From assembly GCA_902812465.1 (NCBI GenBank), contig CADDZE010000018.1, forward strand, positions 1 through 64,000: a stretch of 64,000 nucleotides of DNA, in the 5' to 3' direction. The stretch is from Acidobacteriota bacterium. Its GTDB lineage: Bacteria; Acidobacteriota; Terriglobia; UBA7540. The notes under the pieces are model-generated. The model worked only from the letters and a program-made list of their open reading frames with translations, ran no database searches and was not told where the DNA came from. A program made the translations under genes and the position numbers. Positions 52,485 to 64,000 of this stretch are shown one piece after another (within the stretch, counting starts at the first letter, position 1; each line of letters starts with the position of its first letter).

Positions 52485-52568
52485 TATAGCCAGGGAAATG
52501 TTGGCCGGGTGCTTCCGTGATTCCTCCAGCCCGCCATTCAAGCCCCCTGCCTTGCGGAGGGCCGTCGC

Positions 52569-52588
52569 GTGGGGTAAAACTACCCCAC
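52569..52588. promoter_or_regulatory. Perfect 20-base palindrome upstream of the S9 peptidase
   Basis: GTGGGGTA and TACCCCAC flank AAAC, a perfect hairpin or operator-like palindrome 26 bases before the TTG start and between two divergent genes. It could be a regulator-binding site or an RNA structure in the leader. Confidence 0.5.
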
Positions 52589-52614
52589 CTACTTTCATCC
52601 AGGAGGGATCGAAC

Positions 52615-54705
52615 TTGAAAAGGACAATACGCAGCTTTGCCTGTGGCCTCATGGTGACCCTGGCGGCGGCGCTGGTGACAGCGGGAGAGCATCCGGCCAC
52701 GGATCGTTTGACCGCCATGGACGTTTTCAACATCCAGTACGGGGCCGACCCCCAGATCTCGCCCGACGGTTCAAAGATCGTCTACGTCCGCCAGTTCTGC
52801 GACATCATGACGGATAAGCGCGCATCCAACCTGTGGATCGTCAACCGCGACGGCACTCAGAACCGGCCTCTCACCACCGGAAGTTTCAGCGACACCTCCC
52901 CGCGCTGGTCACCCGACGGTACGCGCCTGGCCTGCGTCTCCGATCGCGACGGGCATCCGCAGCTCTACGTCCGCTGGATGGATACGGGACAGACGGCGAA
53001 AATTACCGACCTCGAATTCCCGCCCAGCGGTATCGCCTGGTCGCCGGATGGGAAGCTGATTAGCTTCGCCGCCCTCGTGGCCGGCTCGGAACCGAGGCTT
53101 GCCGAGCTGCCCAAACCCCCGGCGGGCGCACACTGGGCTGATCCGCCGAAGCTGTTTGACCGCCTCGTTTACCGCTTCAACGGCCAAGGCTACCTCAAAC
53201 CGGGATTCACACAACTCTTCGTCGTGTCCGCCGATGGCGGCGCGCCGCGCCAGCTCACCACCGGCAATTTTCCCCATGGCACCAGTGCCTTGGGCGGTGC
53301 CAGCACGGCTTGGACACCCGACGGGCAATACTTGATCTTCGCGGCAAAGCTCGAACCCGACTACGAGTACACCTACCACAGGCAGATCTACGAACTGCGT
53401 CTGGCAGATGGTCAAATCAAGCAGCTGACACATCGCGAAGGGCCCAACAACTCGCCCCAAGTTTCGCCGGATGGCCAGCGGATCGCCTACACCGGCTACG
53501 ACGACCGCTACCAGGGGCACCAGACAACCTATCTCTACGTCATGGACCGCGACGGCAGCCATCCGCGTCCGCTTTCCGCCAGCCTGGACCGTGATGCCGA
53601 GAATCCTGAATGGGCGGCGGATGGCAGCGGCGTTTACTTCCTCTACGACGACCAGGGCGATACCAAGCTGGGTTTCGCTTCCCTGGACGGCAAGGTAACG
53701 ATTCTCGCGAACCACGTGGGCACGGGCGGCTCGTCGTATGGAGGCGGCCACGCGTTCACAGTGGCCCGCGACGGTACCTTCGCTATCCCCTATACGCTGC
53801 CCGACGAGCCCGGCGACATCGCCGTGGGACGGGCTGGGGAGTCGGGGATCCCGATCATCACCGCCTTAAACCGCGAGCTGCTGAGACAGAAGAAACTGGG
53901 GCAGGTGGAGGAATTCTGGTTCAACTCCTCCAAGGACCAGCGCAAGATCGAAGGCTGGCTGGTGAAGCCGCCGGACTTCGACCCTGCCAAAAAGTACCCG
54001 CTGATTCTAGAAATCCACGGCGGCCCCTTCGCCAACTATGGCGACCGGTTTGACATCATGAAACAGATTTGGGCGGCGCTGGGCTACGTGGTGCTTTACG
54101 TCAATCCGCGGGGCAGTACGAGCTATGGTGAGGAGTTCGCCAACCTCATCCACCACGCCTATCCTGGCGACGATTTCTACGACCTCGATTCGGGCGTAAG
54201 CGCGGCCGTGGCCAAGGGATACATCGACCCGGAGAATCTCTTTGTCACCGGCGGCAGTGGCGGCGGGGTCCTTACCTGCTGGATGGTCGAGCGCAGCACG
54301 CGTTTTCGCGCCGCGGCGAGCCTCTATCCGGTCATTAACTGGTACAGCTGGACGCTGACGGCGGACATTCCCATCATTGGCGTCAAGTACTGGTTTCCGG
54401 GCCCGCCCTGGGAGTATCCGCAGCAGTACTACGAACGCTCCGTGATCAATCACGTGCAAAAGGTGAAGACGCCCACCATGCTCATGACCGGAGAGGACGA
54501 TTACCGCACGCCCATCTCAGAAGCTGAGCAATTCTACGAGGCGCTGAAGCTGCGGAAGGTCGACACGCTGCTAGTGCGCGTGCCGGGCGAGCCCCACGGC
54601 ATCAGCCAGCGGCCCAGCCACCTGATTGCCAAGACGCTCTACGTGGCCGGCTGGTTTGAGCAGCACCGGGCGCGGCCGGCTAGGGCCGGGGCCACCGCGC
54701 GCTGA
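52615..54705 (+). CDS. S9 family peptidase (prolyl oligopeptidase, DPP/acylaminoacyl type)
   Basis: A 696-residue secreted peptidase (signal about 1-22). An N-terminal seven-bladed beta-propeller with WD40-like repeats (PQISPDGSKIVYVR, SPDGTRLACVSDRDG, SPDGKLISFAALV) is followed by an alpha/beta-hydrolase domain with the triad Ser548 (GGSGGG), Asp628 (EDDYRTP) and His661 (GEPHGIS). It is S9C-like, cleaving short peptides. The best start is TTG at 52615 behind AGGAGGG, rather than the upstream ATG; the extra 39 residues are not signal-like. Confidence 0.92.
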   Translation: MKRTIRSFACGLMVTLAAALVTAGEHPATDRLTAMDVFNIQYGADPQISPDGSKIVYVRQFCDIMTDKRASNLWIVNRDGTQNRPLTTGSFSDTSPRWSPDGTRLACVSDRDGHPQLYVRWMDTGQTAKITDLEFPPSGIAWSPDGKLISFAALVAGSEPRLAELPKPPAGAHWADPPKLFDRLVYRFNGQGYLKPGFTQLFVVSADGGAPRQLTTGNFPHGTSALGGASTAWTPDGQYLIFAAKLEPDYEYTYHRQIYELRLADGQIKQLTHREGPNNSPQVSPDGQRIAYTGYDDRYQGHQTTYLYVMDRDGSHPRPLSASLDRDAENPEWAADGSGVYFLYDDQGDTKLGFASLDGKVTILANHVGTGGSSYGGGHAFTVARDGTFAIPYTLPDEPGDIAVGRAGESGIPIITALNRELLRQKKLGQVEEFWFNSSKDQRKIEGWLVKPPDFDPAKKYPLILEIHGGPFANYGDRFDIMKQIWAALGYVVLYVNPRGSTSYGEEFANLIHHAYPGDDFYDLDSGVSAAVAKGYIDPENLFVTGGSGGGVLTCWMVERSTRFRAAASLYPVINWYSWTLTADIPIIGVKYWFPGPPWEYPQQYYERSVINHVQKVKTPTMLMTGEDDYRTPISEAEQFYEALKLRKVDTLLVRVPGEPHGISQRPSHLIAKTLYVAGWFEQHRARPARAGATAR

Positions 54706-54732: not shown

Positions 54733-56022
54733 TCAAATCACGGCGGAGCGCAGTACCTCGTAGAGGCGGTCGGCTACGATCTGGTCCTCGCCCGGACGCA
54801 TCATCCAAACGCCAACCACGATCGTGTTGCTGCCTCCCGGGAGGCCAGCGCTCGCCGGTCCGCCACCGGTGGCCGGGTTGAGCTCGATCCGCGGCTTACC
54901 CTGCCGCATCCTCTCCATCACCTCGCGACCGGTGAGCTTGATCCGGCTCAGATCGTAAGTAATGAGCAGGTGAGGCACGTGGTTGGCGACGGGCGGGACG
55001 AAGATTTTTGTCTCTACGGTGGGAAGGTCTTTCAGGCGTGCGGCGATTCTTTCGGCGCGACTGCGAAACTCCCTTTCCATCGCCGCCTCGTCCTGGCTTA
55101 AGAGCCAGTCGACAGCCGCCACCAGCCCAACGATCTCTTCCTTGCCCACCTTCATGCCGCGACCGATCGTATTCGAGTTGGGCGAATTGTTCAGCTTGGC
55201 TGCGGCGATCAGATCCTTGCGCCCCAGCAGCAAGCCCGTGCATTGCGGCCCGCGTATCCCCTTGCCGCCGGAAAACGCGACAAGGTCAAATCCCATCTGG
55301 GTGTAATGCCAGAGGTTGGAGATGGGTGGGATGTCGGCGGCGGCGTCGTTGAAGCAAGGCACGCCGTGCTGGTGAGCCACCCGCACCCAATCTTCGCGGC
55401 TGATTTGCCCGCTCTCCGCCGCGTTGAAGTAGTGAGCCATGACCGTCCGTTCCGTGAAGGCCTGCTCGTACTCCTCCAGGGTCTCGACTTCGACAAAGCG
55501 CACGCCAGCGTTGCGGACGCCATGATCATACTCGTAGCGGTGGGCCCTCTGCACGATGACCTCGTTCTTCAGCCCAGTCATGTCGGTTGGAATATTCACA
55601 ATGGCCTGCTGATTTCCCAGCGTGACGCAAGCAGCGGTTCCTAGGGTGAGGGCCGCGGCGGCTCCCGCCGTCACCAGCGCGGCCTCACAGCGCAAGCGTT
55701 TAGCGAGGTACTCTCCGGCCGCATCGAGCAGTTCGTTGAGGTTGACCGGCTGCTGCGCTGCCAGCGCCATGGCCGCCTGGACTTCATCCGGCATGATCGA
55801 GGCGGAGAGGACAGTGTAGGTACCCGCGGCGTTGATGAACGGGGTCACGCCCAGCTTTTGGTAATAATCAACGCCAGGCCCCGGCGCGGACCTTGCGCCC
55901 CGCAGAATACGCGCCGTAGGGGGATGACCGGAGGGGTTCGCGGCTTTGCTGGCAGCAGCCCCTGCCATGAGGGCTGCACCGCTGCTGCGCAGGAGCTGAC
56001 GCCGATTCAGGCTTCGAGCCAT
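54733..56022 (-). CDS. SelA-like PLP enzyme with a Tat signal (DgaE-like ammonia-lyase family)
   Basis: A 429-residue PLP-dependent enzyme of the SelA-like group, with predicted PLP lysine K254 in AFSGGKGIRGPQ. Relatives include D-glucosaminate-6-phosphate ammonia-lyase (DgaE) and the SelA-like gene next to the Enterococcus EF_0837-type amidohydrolase. It begins with a twin-arginine signal (SLNRRQLLRSSGAALMAGAAA), so it is predicted to be folded with its cofactor in the cytoplasm and then exported. The frame extends to 56133 but the ATG at 56022 starts the Tat signal. It is directly followed on the same strand (upstream) by an amidohydrolase with a Sec signal. Confidence 0.82.
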   Translation of the reverse strand: MARSLNRRQLLRSSGAALMAGAAASKAANPSGHPPTARILRGARSAPGPGVDYYQKLGVTPFINAAGTYTVLSASIMPDEVQAAMALAAQQPVNLNELLDAAGEYLAKRLRCEAALVTAGAAAALTLGTAACVTLGNQQAIVNIPTDMTGLKNEVIVQRAHRYEYDHGVRNAGVRFVEVETLEEYEQAFTERTVMAHYFNAAESGQISREDWVRVAHQHGVPCFNDAAADIPPISNLWHYTQMGFDLVAFSGGKGIRGPQCTGLLLGRKDLIAAAKLNNSPNSNTIGRGMKVGKEEIVGLVAAVDWLLSQDEAAMEREFRSRAERIAARLKDLPTVETKIFVPPVANHVPHLLITYDLSRIKLTGREVMERMRQGKPRIELNPATGGGPASAGLPGGSNTIVVGVWMMRPGEDQIVADRLYEVLRSAVI

Positions 56023-56041
56023 GCAACCTCCTCGAATGTCT

Positions 56042-57397
56042 CTATTCCCGCGGATAATTGTCAGCCCGCGCACGCGGAGAATTGCCGAGAGCTGGCGTCG
56101 TAAAGTACTGCGCGGGCGCCTTCCGCCATTCAACCATGCTGAGGCCGGATGGATCGTAGAGAATTCTCCCGCCGCGGATCGTCATGCGTGCCACCAGCTT
56201 CGCCTGACCATCCATTCGGGCGTAGCCGCAATCGATGTAACTAAACGGCCCCTGCAGCTCTTCCAGCACCGCAATGTCGGCCTCCCGGCCCACCGACAGC
56301 GTTCCCAGCTCGGGGCGGTGAATCTCGCGTGCGGGATTAACGGTGGAGCGGCGAATGAGCTCGGCCAGCGGCACGCCCATGGCTAGGAATTTGGACAGGA
56401 CCTCGGTCATATTCAACACCGTGAAGTTGCCGTGGTGCAAGTCGGTGGAGATCGAGTCGGGAAGGAAGCCCTGCTCGACGGCCGGCACCGCATTGCGAAA
56501 CCAGAAGCTCGCCTCGCCGTGGCCCACGTCGAAGATGACGCCGCGCGCCCGCGCCTCCGTCAGGATCGGATTGAGCTTGCCATCAGGCAGCAGGATGGGG
56601 AACTGCTGGGCAAAGACGTGAGTGTGAATGTCGCCCGGCCGCATCTTCTTCAAAATCAGCTCGCTATAGGGCCTTTCGGGACGTGGCCAGAAGTCAAACA
56701 TGACCGGGACGCCGGCCATCTGGCCGCATTCTTCGGCGCGGTCGACGGCCGCCCAGGGTGTGTGCTCGGCGTCCCAAGGCTGATAGGTCCAGTAGTGCGC
56801 GGTTTTAACCCCCACCAGGATATCGCGGTGCTTGGCGATGGTCTCGGCGCACCGCTTCACATCCATCTGATCGATGCTCTGCTCAAGCCCGCCGTTCATG
56901 CCGTCGGCCACAATGTTGAGAAAGGCCAGTACACGCACCTTGGCATGGTCGATCACCTCCTCCTTCTCCTGCAAAAAGGTGTCTGCTCCGGCGCTGCCCG
57001 CATCCACGATGGTCGTCACTCCCGCCTGGAGCGCTAGGTCCGCCGGGATGCCTAGGGGTGCCAGCTGCGAACGCGCGTCCGGTGCGAACCAGTTGAGCGG
57101 CGCGCCTCCGTGGCCAACATGAAAGTGAATGTCGATCAGGCCAGGTGTCACGTAGAGGCCTTTGACGTTCACGACCTTGGCTGCCTGGACCTCCGGAATA
57201 TCCTTAGCCACCGCGGCAATCCTTCCGGACGCCACGGCTACGTCCATCACCGCGTCCACGCCATTGGCCGGATCAAGCACGTGGCCGCCCTTCAACAGCA
57301 AGTCGTAGCGGGCCGCCGGAGCCTGCGCGGGCAAACTCTGGGCTGCGGTTAGCATGGCCAGGGATAGCACGGAGAAATGTAAACAAGGTTGCATCAT
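56042..57397 (-). CDS. Exported amidohydrolase (EF_0837-like deacetylase/metallohydrolase family)
   Basis: A 451-residue amidohydrolase with a predicted signal peptide (about 1-24). The metal centre has His91-x-His93 (DIHFHVGHG), a Lys in GVKTAHYWTYQPW as possible carbamylated bridging ligand, His in IHTHVF and Asp in ISTDLHH. The sequence is of the dihydroorotase-like EF_0837/AHA_3915 family that pairs with SelA-like DgaE-type genes. Its neighbour 20 bases downstream is the Tat-exported SelA-like gene, so the pair seems periplasmic. Substrates are unknown; acylated amino or sugar-derived compounds are possible. Confidence 0.85.
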   Translation of the reverse strand: MMQPCLHFSVLSLAMLTAAQSLPAQAPAARYDLLLKGGHVLDPANGVDAVMDVAVASGRIAAVAKDIPEVQAAKVVNVKGLYVTPGLIDIHFHVGHGGAPLNWFAPDARSQLAPLGIPADLALQAGVTTIVDAGSAGADTFLQEKEEVIDHAKVRVLAFLNIVADGMNGGLEQSIDQMDVKRCAETIAKHRDILVGVKTAHYWTYQPWDAEHTPWAAVDRAEECGQMAGVPVMFDFWPRPERPYSELILKKMRPGDIHTHVFAQQFPILLPDGKLNPILTEARARGVIFDVGHGEASFWFRNAVPAVEQGFLPDSISTDLHHGNFTVLNMTEVLSKFLAMGVPLAELIRRSTVNPAREIHRPELGTLSVGREADIAVLEELQGPFSYIDCGYARMDGQAKLVARMTIRGGRILYDPSGLSMVEWRKAPAQYFTTPALGNSPRARADNYPRE

Positions 57398-58389: not shown

Positions 58390-59748
58390 TCAGCGCTCCT
58401 CCGGCTTGCTGGACTGAAAAGCGAACGCTGATCCCGTCATTTCCTCCGGCGGATCACCTCCGGCCATGGCGTGGGCGATCACTAACTGCCGTGCCTCCAC
58501 GCGCAAGGCCGGCCAACTCGAGGCGAAGAGGGCCGCACCGGCCAGGCTGGCCAAGCCGCCCAAGGCGACCGTCAGCGGTGCGCCAATGCGGCCTGCGACC
58601 GCGCCGGCTAGCAGTGCCCCGAAGGGCGCCATCCCCATAAACATCATGGTGTAGACGGACATCACCCGACCGCGCAGCTCGTCCGGCACCATGTGCTGAA
58701 TGAGCGTGTTGGATGAAGCCATTTGCAACATCATCGAAAACCCTACCGGCAGTAGTAGCAGCGCCGACAACCAGAAGCGGCGGGAGAGGGCGAAGAGGAT
58801 CAGGCTAGTGCCGAACCCCGCTGAGGCGAAGGACACCCAACGCCCCAGTCCGCGAATGCCGCGGCGGGCCGCCAGCGTCAGCGTCCCAGCCAGGGCGCCA
58901 ACTCCCGAGGCGCCCATGAGCAGCCCCAATCCCCTCGCACCGCCGTGCAGGATCCGGTCGGCGAAGATAGGCATAAGGACGGCATACGGCATGCCAGTGA
59001 GGCTTACCAGCCCCAGGAGCAGCAGTAGTGCGCGGATGGGCCCGGTGTGCACCACAAACTGGAAACCTTCGGCGATGCTCTCCAGCGCCGACGTCGCCTG
59101 CTGCCCGCGCGGCGGCGGGTCAATTTCCATCAGCAACAATCCCGCGATCACCGCGAGGTAGCTGAGGCCATTAGCGAAGAAGCACCATCCCTCGCCAATC
59201 GACGCCACCAGGATGCCCGCAATCGCCGGTCCGATAATGCGCGCGCCATTGACCATCGAGGAGTTCAAGGCAATGGCATTCACCAGGTCCTGCCCCTTCA
59301 CCATTTCCACGATGAACGCCTGCCGCGCCGGAATGTCGAACGCGTTTGCCGTTCCCAGCAGGCCCGCCAGCAGAACGATGTGCCATACCTGGATGCGACC
59401 CAGCAGGGTGAGCGCCGCGAGAATAAAGGCCAGCAGCATCATCGATGTCTGCGTGGCAATCACAATGCGATGGCGACTGTAGCGGTCCGCCGCCAGGCCC
59501 CCCAGCGGAGCCAGCACAAACGAAGGAATCTGGCCCACAAACCCGACGAGACCCAAAAGTACGGACGACCCTGTTAGCCGGTACACCAGCCAGGATTGGG
59601 CTACCGATTGCATCCAGGTGCCGATCAGCGAGATCATTTGGCCGCTGAAAAACAACCGGTAGTTACGGTGGCGCAGGGCACGAAACATCACCGGAAGCTC
59701 CAAGCGCTTCTCGGCACGGGCGATTTGGGCCTGGCTCTCTAGCATCAC
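58390..59748 (-). CDS. MFS transporter (EntS/DHA3-like)
   Basis: A 452-residue major facilitator transporter with about 12 helices. It has the MFS motif GGLAADRYSRHRIVI and a sequence of the EntS/MFS_3 type (SWLVYRLTGSSVLLGLVGFVGQIPSFVLAPLGG). Members export siderophores or drugs. It is 10 bases downstream of the emrB-like gene and could be part of the same operon, though its job may be separate. An ATG at the next codon could also be the start. Confidence 0.88.
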   Translation of the reverse strand: MMLESQAQIARAEKRLELPVMFRALRHRNYRLFFSGQMISLIGTWMQSVAQSWLVYRLTGSSVLLGLVGFVGQIPSFVLAPLGGLAADRYSRHRIVIATQTSMMLLAFILAALTLLGRIQVWHIVLLAGLLGTANAFDIPARQAFIVEMVKGQDLVNAIALNSSMVNGARIIGPAIAGILVASIGEGWCFFANGLSYLAVIAGLLLMEIDPPPRGQQATSALESIAEGFQFVVHTGPIRALLLLLGLVSLTGMPYAVLMPIFADRILHGGARGLGLLMGASGVGALAGTLTLAARRGIRGLGRWVSFASAGFGTSLILFALSRRFWLSALLLLPVGFSMMLQMASSNTLIQHMVPDELRGRVMSVYTMMFMGMAPFGALLAGAVAGRIGAPLTVALGGLASLAGAALFASSWPALRVEARQLVIAHAMAGGDPPEEMTGSAFAFQSSKPEER

Positions 59749-59758
59749 CGTTCGCCAA

Positions 59759-61354
59759 TCAATGCACGCTAGCCACCGTTCCTCTGGGCGGTCGCCTCAT
59801 CAGAAACGACAGCGGGATCAGCAGGGCGGCCGCCACGCCCAGCAACCAGAAATTGTCGAGATAAGACATCATCCAGGCCTGCCGGATGATTGCACCGTAA
59901 AGCTGCCCGTAAGCCTGCTGGATTCCCCCTACGGAGCCGCTCTGCAGCAGCATCTGCCCCGCGCGGTGGGCCGCCTCGCGGAATCCGGGATCGAAGGCGG
60001 AGGCGTGGGCCACCAGCACGCTCTGGTGAAATTGCGAGCGGCGGGCCAACATGGTTGTCACGAAGGAGATACCCACACTGCCCCCGATGTTTCGTGCCAA
60101 GTTGATAAGTCCAGAGGCCGCGTTGTTCTTTTCCCGCGGCAGGTACGCGTAGGCCGCCGTGTTGATGGGAATGAAGAGAAAGGCCAGCCCCGAAGCCTGA
60201 AACACGCGCGCCCACATCATGGTGTTGAAGTCGACGTCCAGGTCGAACCGGTACGCCATGTAGAACATGGCCACCGCCAGCGCCGTGAGGCCAAAGGCGA
60301 TCAGCTTGCGTGCGTCCCAACGCGCGAGTAGATAGCCGACCAATGGCAGCATGATGATGATGGCAAAGCCGCCGGGCATCAGCATGAGGCCGGCTAGTTC
60401 GGCCGTGTACCCCATGAGCGTCTGCGAAAGCTGCGGAAGGAGGACGGTGGTTCCGTACAAGACGAACCCCACCATGAACAGCATGATGCAAGCCATCAAG
60501 AACGTTCGGTTGCTAAACAGCCTGACCTCAACGACCGGATCATGGTGGCGACGCTCCCAGAAATAGACGGCCACGAGGCACACTGCAGAAACAATGGCCA
60601 GCACCGTGATGTAATGTGTCTCGAACCAATCCTCCCGTTCGCCCTTATCCAGAATCACCTGCAGCGAGCCCAAGCCCAGGGCCAGGAGCGCGAAGCCTAT
60701 GTAATCGATCTTCACACCAGCGCCTTTTCTTCCTTTCAGCCACGGGGGATCAGAAACTAGCCGCGAAGTAAGCAAGAGGGAGAGTACGCCCACCGGAATA
60801 TTGATAAAGAAGATCCAGCGCCAGCTGTAGTTGTCGGTGATCCAGCCGCCCACCGTCGGTCCTAAGGCGGGAGCGAACACCACCGCCATGCCATAAACGG
60901 CGAACGCCATTCCGCGCTGGGCCGGAGGAAACGTGTCCGCCAGGATCGCCTGTTCGCTAGGCTGCAATCCTCCCCCGCCAGCCCCCTGAAGCACCCGAAC
61001 GAAAATCAGGAAAGGAAGGCTGGGAGCAATGCCGCAGAGGAAAGAGCTCAGGGTAAACAGGGCTACGCAACTCATGTAGAAGCGCTTCCGGCCAAAGACC
61101 GAAGACAACCAGCCAGACAGGGGAAGCACGACCGCATTGGAAACTAGATACGAGGTCAGCACCCAGGTGCTTTCGTCCTGACCGGCCGCGAGGCCGCCGG
61201 CAATGTGCGGTAGCGCCACATTGGCAACACTCGTATCGAGTACCTCCATAAACGTCGCCAACGTGACAGTCAGGGCGATGAGCCAAGGGTTGTGACCGGG
61301 GTCCCAGCCCAGCTCTCGATGAGCCTTTTCTGACCTGGTTTCTGTTTCACTCAT
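59759..61354 (-). CDS. EmrB/QacA (DHA2) family multidrug efflux MFS transporter
   Basis: A 531-residue MFS exporter of the DHA2 group with about 14 helices. It has the motif A region (GWLSSVFGRKRFY), motif C (PALGPTVGGWITD) and the DHA2 pattern TFMEVLDTSVANVALPHIAGGL. It is the inner-membrane pump of a tripartite system with the HlyD/EmrA and TolC genes just upstream. The start at 61354 (MSETET) is preferred over the frame's first ATG (61378). Confidence 0.91.
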   Translation of the reverse strand: MSETETRSEKAHRELGWDPGHNPWLIALTVTLATFMEVLDTSVANVALPHIAGGLAAGQDESTWVLTSYLVSNAVVLPLSGWLSSVFGRKRFYMSCVALFTLSSFLCGIAPSLPFLIFVRVLQGAGGGGLQPSEQAILADTFPPAQRGMAFAVYGMAVVFAPALGPTVGGWITDNYSWRWIFFINIPVGVLSLLLTSRLVSDPPWLKGRKGAGVKIDYIGFALLALGLGSLQVILDKGEREDWFETHYITVLAIVSAVCLVAVYFWERRHHDPVVEVRLFSNRTFLMACIMLFMVGFVLYGTTVLLPQLSQTLMGYTAELAGLMLMPGGFAIIIMLPLVGYLLARWDARKLIAFGLTALAVAMFYMAYRFDLDVDFNTMMWARVFQASGLAFLFIPINTAAYAYLPREKNNAASGLINLARNIGGSVGISFVTTMLARRSQFHQSVLVAHASAFDPGFREAAHRAGQMLLQSGSVGGIQQAYGQLYGAIIRQAWMMSYLDNFWLLGVAAALLIPLSFLMRRPPRGTVASVH

Positions 61355-61502
61355 GCCTGCCCGCTTGCGTCGCTCCATGAATTGAGGGCGGAGATTTCGC
61401 GCAAAATCAGTTCTTTCGCCACCTCGCCGCCGAGTCTGTCCTTGATAGGACTAACGGTTCGGTCATTCGGCGTTTTCGACGACGCCAATTCAGATCGTGG
61501 TG

Positions 61503-62765
61503 TCATCGCACCTTTACCTTCGGTTCCACTGACATTCCGGGTCGGAGCAAATGCTCGGGATCTTGCCCGGTTTCGAAACGAATTCGCACCGGTACTCGCT
61601 GCACGATCTTTACGTAGTTACCCGTGGCGTTTTCGGGAGGGAGCAGACTGAACACGGCGCCTGTGCCGCCCGCAATGCTTTCCACCCGGCCTTTGTAATC
61701 GCGACCGTAGGCGTCCACATGGATCTTGACCGGCTGGCCGGGGCGCATCTGGCGGAGCTGGGTCTCTTTAAAGTTGGCCGTCACCCAGATGTTCTCCAAG
61801 GGCACAATGGCCATCAGCTGCTGCCCCGGTGTCACGTACTGGCCTGGCTGCACCGAGCGTTTCGCCACTACGCCATCCACCGGCGCCACGATGCGCGTGT
61901 ACGTAAGGTTCAGTTCTGCCTGCCCGACGGCGGCCCTTGCTTTCTCCACCATGGCCGCAGCCGCCTGAGCTCGTGCCCTTTGAATCCGAACCTGCTCGGG
62001 CCCTGTGCGGGCGGCTTCCAGGGCCGCCTCAGCCTGAGCGAGGCGTGCCCGGGCTTGGCTCACCTGGTCCTGCACGGCCTGCACGGAAGCGCGCGCCGCA
62101 GCGACAGCCGCCGCTGCCGCCTTGGCTGTCTCGACGGCTTGCGTGTACTGCTGCTCGGAAATCTCCTGCTTATCCACCAGAAGCTTGTAACGGCGCACGT
62201 CGTCCTGGGCCTTGGCGTTGTTGGCCTCGGCCTGTTCCAGGAATGCCTGGGCCGCCGCCAGCTGCTTTTCGGCGGCTGACACGCCAGCCTGGGCGTTGTT
62301 AACATCCGCCGATGCGGAACGCACTTGGCTGGTGGTGCTCACCGAAGTAATCGGCACGTTCACCTGGCTGGCCACGGCGGAGGCCTGATCATTAGCTAGA
62401 GCGGCCTTGGCGCTGTCCAGGGCCAGCTGGTAATCCTTGGGATCGATCTCCGCCAGCAGGAATCCGGCCTTGACATACTGGTTGTCGTCCACGTAGACGC
62501 GTGTGATGTAGCCCGCGATGCGCGAGGTGACGGGATTGATGTAACCGTCGATCTGCGCGTCGTCGGTTGATTCCCACTGCATGTAATAGTGATACAGCAT
62601 CGCCCCGGCAGCCACCAGGACAAGGGCAGCGATCGGCACAAGGATCTTCAGGCCCGGCTTCCTGTAGGATGAAAGCTCCCGGCGCGGCTCGACTTCGCGG
62701 CTCGCCTCGAGGGGCTCCTCCACCTCAGCCTTGGTGCGAATCTCGGTCACCTTCACCTGCGACAT
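61503..62765 (-). CDS. HlyD/EmrA-type membrane fusion protein
   Basis: A 420-residue periplasmic adaptor. A short cytoplasmic N-terminus, one transmembrane helix (about 40-60), then a lipoyl-like half (STDDAQIDGYINPVTSRIAGYI), a long alpha-helical coiled coil (about 110-260, rich in Ala, Gln and Glu), and a second lipoyl half with YTRIVAPVDGVVAKRSVQPGQYVTPGQ. It links the EmrB pump to the TolC channel. Its ATG is one base from the tolC stop (TGACATG). The gene order is tolC, emrA, emrB. Confidence 0.92.
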   Translation of the reverse strand: MSQVKVTEIRTKAEVEEPLEASREVEPRRELSSYRKPGLKILVPIAALVLVAAGAMLYHYYMQWESTDDAQIDGYINPVTSRIAGYITRVYVDDNQYVKAGFLLAEIDPKDYQLALDSAKAALANDQASAVASQVNVPITSVSTTSQVRSASADVNNAQAGVSAAEKQLAAAQAFLEQAEANNAKAQDDVRRYKLLVDKQEISEQQYTQAVETAKAAAAAVAAARASVQAVQDQVSQARARLAQAEAALEAARTGPEQVRIQRARAQAAAAMVEKARAAVGQAELNLTYTRIVAPVDGVVAKRSVQPGQYVTPGQQLMAIVPLENIWVTANFKETQLRQMRPGQPVKIHVDAYGRDYKGRVESIAGGTGAVFSLLPPENATGNYVKIVQRVPVRIRFETGQDPEHLLRPGMSVEPKVKVR

Positions 62766-62766
62766 G

Positions 62767-64000
62767 TCACTTTCCTCCCAGGTAGGCCTTCACGGCCTTT
62801 TCCGCGACGCCCGCCGCCCGGGCGAGCTCGACCTTGGCGATGTTGTACGCATAAAGACTCGAAATGTATGACTGGTTGGCGGCAGCCACGGATTCCTGAG
62901 CCTGCACGACTTCGATGTTGTCCGTCACTCCGGCGGCAAAGCGGTCTTGAGCCTGGGTGAGGGTTTGGCTGGCCAGATCCATGTTGCTCTTGGCCACTTT
63001 GACGAGGTCTTCCGCTGCCTTCAGGTCCAGAAACGCCGAACGAACTTCGCTATCGATTCGGCCGCGCAAATCCTCGAGTTGCGCACGGCGGCGGCGGAGC
63101 TCTGTGTCCGCTTCGAGAATTTCCGCGTGGGCGCGCCCGCCCTGAAAAATCGGAATGTTCAGCGTGCCGGCGAAGGTTACTGTCCCGTGAGAACTGGCGA
63201 AGTTTGGCCCGATCACACCGTACGTGGTGTTCGTGTTCAAGGAAGGATAGCGCTCAGCCACGGCGGCCTTCCTCGAAAACTCGGCCGCGCGCATCGCCGC
63301 CTTGGCACTCAGGTAGTCGGCCCGGTTCGCATAGGCGTCCTGCAGAGCCTTTTCTAGAGTGACCCCCTCGAGCGGGGAATAAGGAACCGTGTCCGTGAGT
63401 GTGAACTGTTGGCCGGGTGGCAACCCGATGATGCGTGCCAGATTCAGCTTGTCCTTTTCGAGCTGATTTTGCGCCGCAATCAGCCGCTGCTGCTGGGTTT
63501 GAAGCTCCACTTGGGCCCGCAGTTCGTCAATCCGTGCAGCCACTCCTGCTGTCCGTTCGTCCTGGGCCCGCTTGTACAGAGCCTGTGCCGTCTTCACCTG
63601 CGCTTGCTGGGACTCGACCGTAGCCGCGTCCGCGATCGCTTGGAGGTAGGCATTTCCCACCACCAGCACCACGATGTCTCGGGCGTTCTGGTAAGCAAAC
63701 TGGGAGGACTTCAGCCGTTCGGTGGTGGCCCGCAGGTTCTGCAAGGCATTCCAATCCAACACCCTCTGCGACAGGCTGGCTCGGGCGTCCTGGAAGCTGA
63801 AGGGACCCACGATCACCGGAAAGCCCGGAAAGTTGAAGTTGAGACCCTCGGCGCGCAGATTGACCTGCTCAATGTTCTGAGAGATGGAGGCGCTTAAATT
63901 GGGCAGCAACTGGCTGAGGCTCTTCAGGCGCTCAGCACGCGCAGTGCGCGTGGCCAAGTCGCTCTCGACCAAGCCGAGGTTGTATTTCAGGCCGCGCTCG
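62767..64000 (-). CDS. TolC family outer-membrane efflux protein, 5' end outside the window
   Basis: Partial gene: the last 411 residues of a TolC-type outer-membrane channel. The visible N-terminal end reads ERGLKYNLGLVESDLATRTARAERLKSLSQLLPNLSAS, which is mid-protein, and the frame is open to the right edge. The protein shows the TolC repeat features (long helices, LSQRVLDWNALQNLRAT, paired repeat in the second half with SAFLDLKAAEDLVKVAKSNMDLASQTL). It is the outer-membrane part of the tripartite pump with the two following genes. Confidence 0.92.
   Translation of the reverse strand, partial: ERGLKYNLGLVESDLATRTARAERLKSLSQLLPNLSASISQNIEQVNLRAEGLNFNFPGFPVIVGPFSFQDARASLSQRVLDWNALQNLRATTERLKSSQFAYQNARDIVVLVVGNAYLQAIADAATVESQQAQVKTAQALYKRAQDERTAGVAARIDELRAQVELQTQQQRLIAAQNQLEKDKLNLARIIGLPPGQQFTLTDTVPYSPLEGVTLEKALQDAYANRADYLSAKAAMRAAEFSRKAAVAERYPSLNTNTTYGVIGPNFASSHGTVTFAGTLNIPIFQGGRAHAEILEADTELRRRRAQLEDLRGRIDSEVRSAFLDLKAAEDLVKVAKSNMDLASQTLTQAQDRFAAGVTDNIEVVQAQESVAAANQSYISSLYAYNIAKVELARAAGVAEKAVKAYLGGK

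Follow-up and report, generated by a model that had tools for sequence, protein, structure and literature searches.

Cofactor-dependent catabolism of amino acids is viewed as a cytoplasmic process, in which RidA proteins guard PLP enzymes of the cytoplasm against enamines. Among such enzymes is the SelA-like protein DgaE, whose genes we take to neighbor those of EF_0837-type amidohydrolases in other bacteria. DgaE is cytoplasmic and acts on a phosphorylated substrate. Its His163 protonates an enamine intermediate and may avoid the release of a toxic intermediate, and its Arg301 lies in a cluster near the docked substrate phosphate (PMC9529869). PLP enzymes that leave the cytoplasm are known from pseudomonads, where PvdN and PtaA are exported in folded form by the Tat system and are active in the periplasm (PMC6206403). 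These two proteins do not belong to the SelA/DgaE family, and instead of acting alongside an amidohydrolase and RidA, they modify pyoverdine. In the Ong pathway of Pseudoalteromonas, which acts on N-acetylglucosaminate, a deacetylase, a PLP deaminase, and RidA are all essential (PMC9537276).

We analyzed a 64,000-nucleotide stretch of an Acidobacteriota genome (contig CADDZE010000018.1; here, the window) in which the two open reading frames reported by an earlier note are present on the minus strand. The upstream gene (56042 to 57397) encodes a cog3964/EF_0837-like amidohydrolase of 451 amino acids, and the downstream gene (54733 to 56022) encodes a SelA-like fold-type I PLP enzyme of 429 amino acids. 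They are separated by 19 bp (56023 to 56041) that contain the Shine-Dalgarno sequence GAGGAGG, located 5 nt upstream of the ATG of the SelA-like gene. This arrangement is best read as a predicted operon that serves a catabolic step in the periplasm. The next gene in the window, encoding an S9 peptidase, is convergent to the pair and was ruled out as a third partner because of that orientation and its poor conservation (matches in 4 of 81 loci, window counted).

The SelA-like protein starts with MARSLNRRQLLRSS (in a longer form, MARSLNRRQLLRSSGAALMAGAAASKAA). Its leader covers residues 1 to 45 (55888 to 56022), with arginines at positions 7 and 8, and the catalytic domain begins at about residue 50. 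As in Tat substrates, a twin arginine, a hydrophobic region, and a long variable leader are all present, and the genome encodes TatC. For comparison, we searched 151 related genomes, of which 89 had a match, and worked with 80 named loci with flanks of up to 10 kb. Arg7 and Arg8 were invariant in all 76 aligned homologs, and 70 of these had Phe or Leu two residues after the pair. Except for these arginines, the leader is variable. Mean pairwise identity was 27% in residues 1 to 45 versus 64% in residues 50 to 429, and the commonest residue per position accounted on average for 31% of rows in the leader versus 73% in the mature part. In the AlphaFold model, about the first 45 residues are disordered and the rest is confident (mean pLDDT, 89). 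A Tat rule (RR plus a hydrophobic stretch), which like our hydropathy rule was of our own making and not a trained predictor, was positive for 145 of 155 homologs versus 28 of 766 internal positions of the same proteins.

When mapped on a 78-row tree, the presence (n = 71) or absence (n = 7) of a Tat leader changed three times, and none of 500 shuffles gave a value as low, though rows of the tree and alignment are related to each other and the counts are not independent events. Five of the seven signal-less rows, including one from the genome of the window, grouped outside the Tat group on a branch of modest support. The other two were a protein truncated by its contig (L093) and an apparent loss (L017, 1414 to 2682), a close homolog with roughly 61 to 65% identity whose twin-arginine leader seems to be gone. 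Members of the Tat group come from Acidobacteriota, from Gemmatimonadota, and from metagenome-assembled genomes labelled Alphaproteobacteria. A chance signal or a miscalled start was ruled out by the invariant arginines within a drifting leader; together with the Shine-Dalgarno sequence at the long start, they bear out the Tat signal that had been proposed for this protein. The comparison of homologs, which the earlier note had named as a check, showed that the Tat leader is common to the whole clade. The view that PLP would be loaded before export has experimental precedent in PvdN and PtaA (PMC6206403).

The amidohydrolase carries the Sec-type leader MMQPCLHFSVLSLAMLTAAQSLPAQA (57320 to 57397), assigned from the sequence and its homologs, whose core is hydrophobic and which ends in AQA. 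Export leaders were recognized by hydropathy in 37 of the 39 amidohydrolases that adjoin SelA-like genes (window counted). Alone, the hydropathy rule was also positive at 90 of 766 internal positions, a control used in place of response regulators, which gave no domain start for the Sec rule. By eye, one of the remaining two proteins (L053) has a Sec leader whose core contains an arginine and the other (L046) has a Tat leader, while four others that our script labelled as Tat have Sec-like leaders with an incidental RR. The Sec signal claimed for this protein is thus upheld by the leaders of its homologs (39 of 39, including the two judged by eye), but the leader in the window is weaker than had been claimed, with no lysine or arginine in its n-region. 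In L046 (1476 to 3100), a close relative, the Tat leader MNRQNRRAFLQNSAAAGAFVA stands in place of the Sec leader. From these leaders, we consider it very probable that both proteins of the pair are exported.

Genes near the SelA-like gene in relatives also encode proteins with leaders. An amidohydrolase gene lies within 5 kb of the SelA-like gene on the same strand in 35 of 81 loci, and in the window's clade it precedes the SelA-like gene, typically by 8 to 82 bp. RidA is encoded within 300 bp of the SelA-like gene in 20 of 81 loci, compared with three RidA genes in the whole 3.9-Mb genome of the window. Every assessable linked RidA has a leader (26 of 26; 21 Tat and 5 Sec, e.g., MQQQSRRGLLKNAAKAAVAVTGGALITETAKAQ), and the arginine of the PxRTT/PxRAT type is kept wherever the motif was found; these counts exclude members of the cluster that are not RidA (L063, L071, and second copies in L072 and L073). 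Leaders were likewise present on all 18 assessable RraA-like proteins. In L053, which is 69% identical, an exported RidA is encoded between the amidohydrolase and the SelA-like gene. Among cultured Acidobacteriaceae and related strains, including Granulicella, Edaphobacter, Terriglobus, and Acidicapsa, the genes are arranged, with variations and mostly on one strand, as a LuxR-type regulator, an outer-membrane barrel, RraA-like, SelA1, RidA, SelA2, and amidohydrolase. SelA2 is a paralog that also has a Tat leader (WSRREVLKQSGMLSA). Loci L094 to L112 (e.g., L096, 9974 to 14900, and L110) contain the operon running from the RraA-like gene to the amidohydrolase, and all of its assessable products have a Tat or Sec leader. 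In the Granulicella-type operon, the exported RraA-like proteins are without the initial Asp of D-x20-R-D, a motif that we take to be a mark of aldolase activity, and this weighs against the reading offered below. Export signals throughout the clade, as well as these further candidate partners, had been missed by the earlier note.

The window's own genome encodes three RidA and three RraA-like proteins. One of each has a Sec leader (MNRKLANLMALAVAGSAVVWSPALAGQ and MKRLIATGLAAAGLVFAAASEAQAQ, respectively), the RraA-like one with the D-x20-R-D motif. The other two RidA proteins, the other two RraA-like proteins, and a SelA-like paralog (contig C126) have no leaders and so provide a matched internal control. 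The gene for the Sec-leadered RidA (L151, 7352 to 10414, contig C2) adjoins genes for a quinoprotein and a cytochrome-c-like protein and is unlinked to the window pair; that for the Sec-leadered RraA-like protein (L152, 6782 to 9174, contig C69) is divergent from an MFS transporter gene. Because the genes are unlinked to the pair, a partnership with RidA and the RraA-like protein in this genome would be by analogy with relatives.

Despite its likeness to DgaE in fold, PLP lysine and aspartate, and MKxGKEx motif, the SelA-like enzyme falls outside that family. Its best structural matches with Foldseek were Cap15 (8T7J; TM, 0.89) and DgaE (7LC0; TM, 0.86), both normalized to the target, followed by SelA. 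Lys254, which would bind PLP, and Asp226 are invariant (76 of 76), as are Lys291 and Lys294. The enzyme matched the DgaE subfamily model TIGR01437 (E = 1.6e-53) below the cut-off (181.9 versus 385.3 bits), and it also missed those of the DgaE equivalog NF047797 (150 versus 600) and the selenocysteine synthase SelA, TIGR00474 (39.9 versus 267.9 bits). By profile and multiple alignments, His162/His163 of DgaE are replaced by Ala202/Glu203, and no aligned homolog in the exported group has the HH pair. In place of Arg301 there is a histidine (His351; 75 of 76 homologs), while Arg332 and Arg346 fall at or past the end of the alignment. Because these residues are replaced, we infer that the enzyme is not DgaE, that a phosphorylated substrate is unlikely, and that release of an enamine is plausible. 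The substrate is therefore probably not a sugar phosphate, and the absence of His163 fits a need for RidA.

The amidohydrolase resembles the cog3964/EF_0837-type enzymes 2OGJ, 2ICS, and 8JE0 over nearly its full length and in the positions of its HxH, Lys, His, and Asp metal ligands, which are conserved in all 39 amidohydrolases. It differs from them in its export leader and at the beta-5 metal-ligand position, which is Asp in 39 of 39 exported proteins, whereas the aligned 2OGJ and 8JE0 have His there. It missed the curated EF_0837 cut-off (TIGR03583, 194 versus 432) and was borderline for the PRK09237 model NF006689 (370.1 versus 371), which the operon homolog in L095 passed (398). With all three family cut-offs missed and the catalytic residues failing, membership in DgaE, SelA, and EF_0837 proper was ruled out. 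The proposal that a sugar-acid DgaE/EF_0837 pathway had simply been moved outside the cytoplasm is not supported, given the missed cut-offs and the replacement of His162/His163 and Arg301.

With modest confidence, we favor as the best overall explanation a periplasmic module that handles N-acyl amino or amino-sugar acids with a deacylase, a PLP ammonia-lyase, and RidA. The Sec-exported metal amidohydrolase would deacylate its substrate, an N-acylated amino acid or amino-sugar acid. The SelA-like enzyme would receive its PLP in the cytoplasm, leave in folded form via Tat, and eliminate water and ammonia from the freed amino acid, probably beta-hydroxylated and non-phosphorylated, to give a 2-keto acid. 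The reactive enamine would be drained by the exported RidA, whose gene adjoins the SelA-like gene in relatives and lies elsewhere in the window's genome. The keto acid might then be taken up or cut by the exported RraA-like aldolase. We regard the chemistry of the module, deacylation followed by ammonia elimination, as about evenly balanced; the sequence does not fix the class of substrate. It is a more tentative suggestion that a full amino-sugar-acid route, comprising deacylation, PLP deamination, RidA, and aldol cleavage, is periplasmic in Acidobacteriota and some Gemmatimonadota, with each enzyme exported. Equally tentatively, such a route could be the periplasmic counterpart of the deaminating Entner-Doudoroff branch.

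The nearest working analog of the proposed module is the Ong pathway, which shares the logic of a D-aminoacylase-type deacetylase, a PLP deaminase, RidA, a TonB-type receptor, and an inner-membrane transporter (PMC9537276). However, that pathway is cytoplasmic, and its deaminase, OngC, has fold type III and is unrelated to SelA, whereas the window enzyme has a SelA/DgaE-like fold (Foldseek) and an export leader. What is new here, as read from sequence, is a conserved exported SelA-like/amidohydrolase module with an exported RidA. In the open-access literature, we found no relevant description of an exported RidA (Tat-exported ones included), a SelA-like Tat protein, or the DgaE/amidohydrolase pair. 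The statement that no periplasmic version had been described therefore holds for the SelA-like family in that literature, but not for PLP enzymes as such, since Tat-exported ones are known. If our reading is true, common soil bacteria would remove amino groups on the outer side of the inner membrane, ahead of uptake. Many genes whose annotation goes no further than SelA-like or aminotransferase class V would gain a testable function, and pyoverdine tailoring would be joined by a second natural system that sends PLP out of the cytoplasm through Tat.

The main alternative to an exported deaminase keeps the export and changes the chemistry: an O2-using decarboxylase or oxygenase, similar to Cap15 or Tat-exported PvdN, would act on an amino-acid group outside the cytoplasm. 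Cap15, a PLP-dependent monooxygenase-decarboxylase, is the closest solved structure, and its oxygen chemistry, as opposed to elimination, counts against a deaminase. Its essential Lys262 and Lys265 (PMC6411801) correspond to the invariant Lys291 and Lys294, and PvdN itself is an O2-using fold-type I enzyme. Yet both lysines occur equally in DgaE, a lyase, and thus do not discriminate; kinship with Cap15-type oxygenases rests only on fold similarity and these shared residues. Cap15 is an enzyme of antibiotic biosynthesis, and its solved chain, which starts near the domain start, is without a Tat leader. We know of no linkage of Cap15 to an amidohydrolase or RidA. The RidA linkage and the deacylase partner fit a deaminase better, and we judge the oxidative alternative to be unlikely. 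Somewhat less likely still is that the exported enzyme is a racemase, an aldolase, or another kind of PLP catalyst whose substrates are D- or L-amino acids from peptides or the cell wall, the amidohydrolase then being a D-aminoacylase or dipeptidase. D-aminoacylases and isoaspartyl dipeptidases belong to the amidohydrolase superfamily, and the window's next gene encodes a peptidase, but that gene points the other way and is rarely matched in other loci, and RidA linkage argues for production of an enamine or imine. That both enzymes are cytoplasmic DgaE/EF_0837 versions with chance leaders or miscalled starts is very improbable, for although an internal ATG at codon 19 would remove the RR and the n-region of the amidohydrolase leader is free of basic residues, the invariant arginines, the Shine-Dalgarno sequence at the long start, the disorder of the leader outside the catalytic fold, and the independent leaders on linked RidA, RraA-like, and amidohydrolase proteins all argue against it.

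MFS genes occur near 25 loci, and where scanned, the nearest model was the D-galactonate transporter subfamily, below cut-off. Quinoprotein genes lie near about ten relatives' loci. A link to amino-sugar oxidation upstream by a PQQ dehydrogenase was set aside as only a lead, as the quinoprotein scanned matched best to TIGR04528 ("acido-empty-quinoprotein"), below cut-off. Absent next to the window's own pair but conserved in its clade are DUF362 and ApbE genes: in L034 to L056 and L092, the region some 2.7 kb upstream from the SelA-like gene has paired ApbE genes and divergent DUF362 genes whose products carry Tat-like MDRRTFVK leaders. In the window, the S9 peptidase (52498 to 54705) shows an apparent Sec leader when read from an internal start (KRTIRSFACGLMVTLAAALVTAG), and the region from 58390 to 63972 on the minus strand encodes an MFS transporter and, after it, an efflux set resembling EmrB, EmrA, and TolC.
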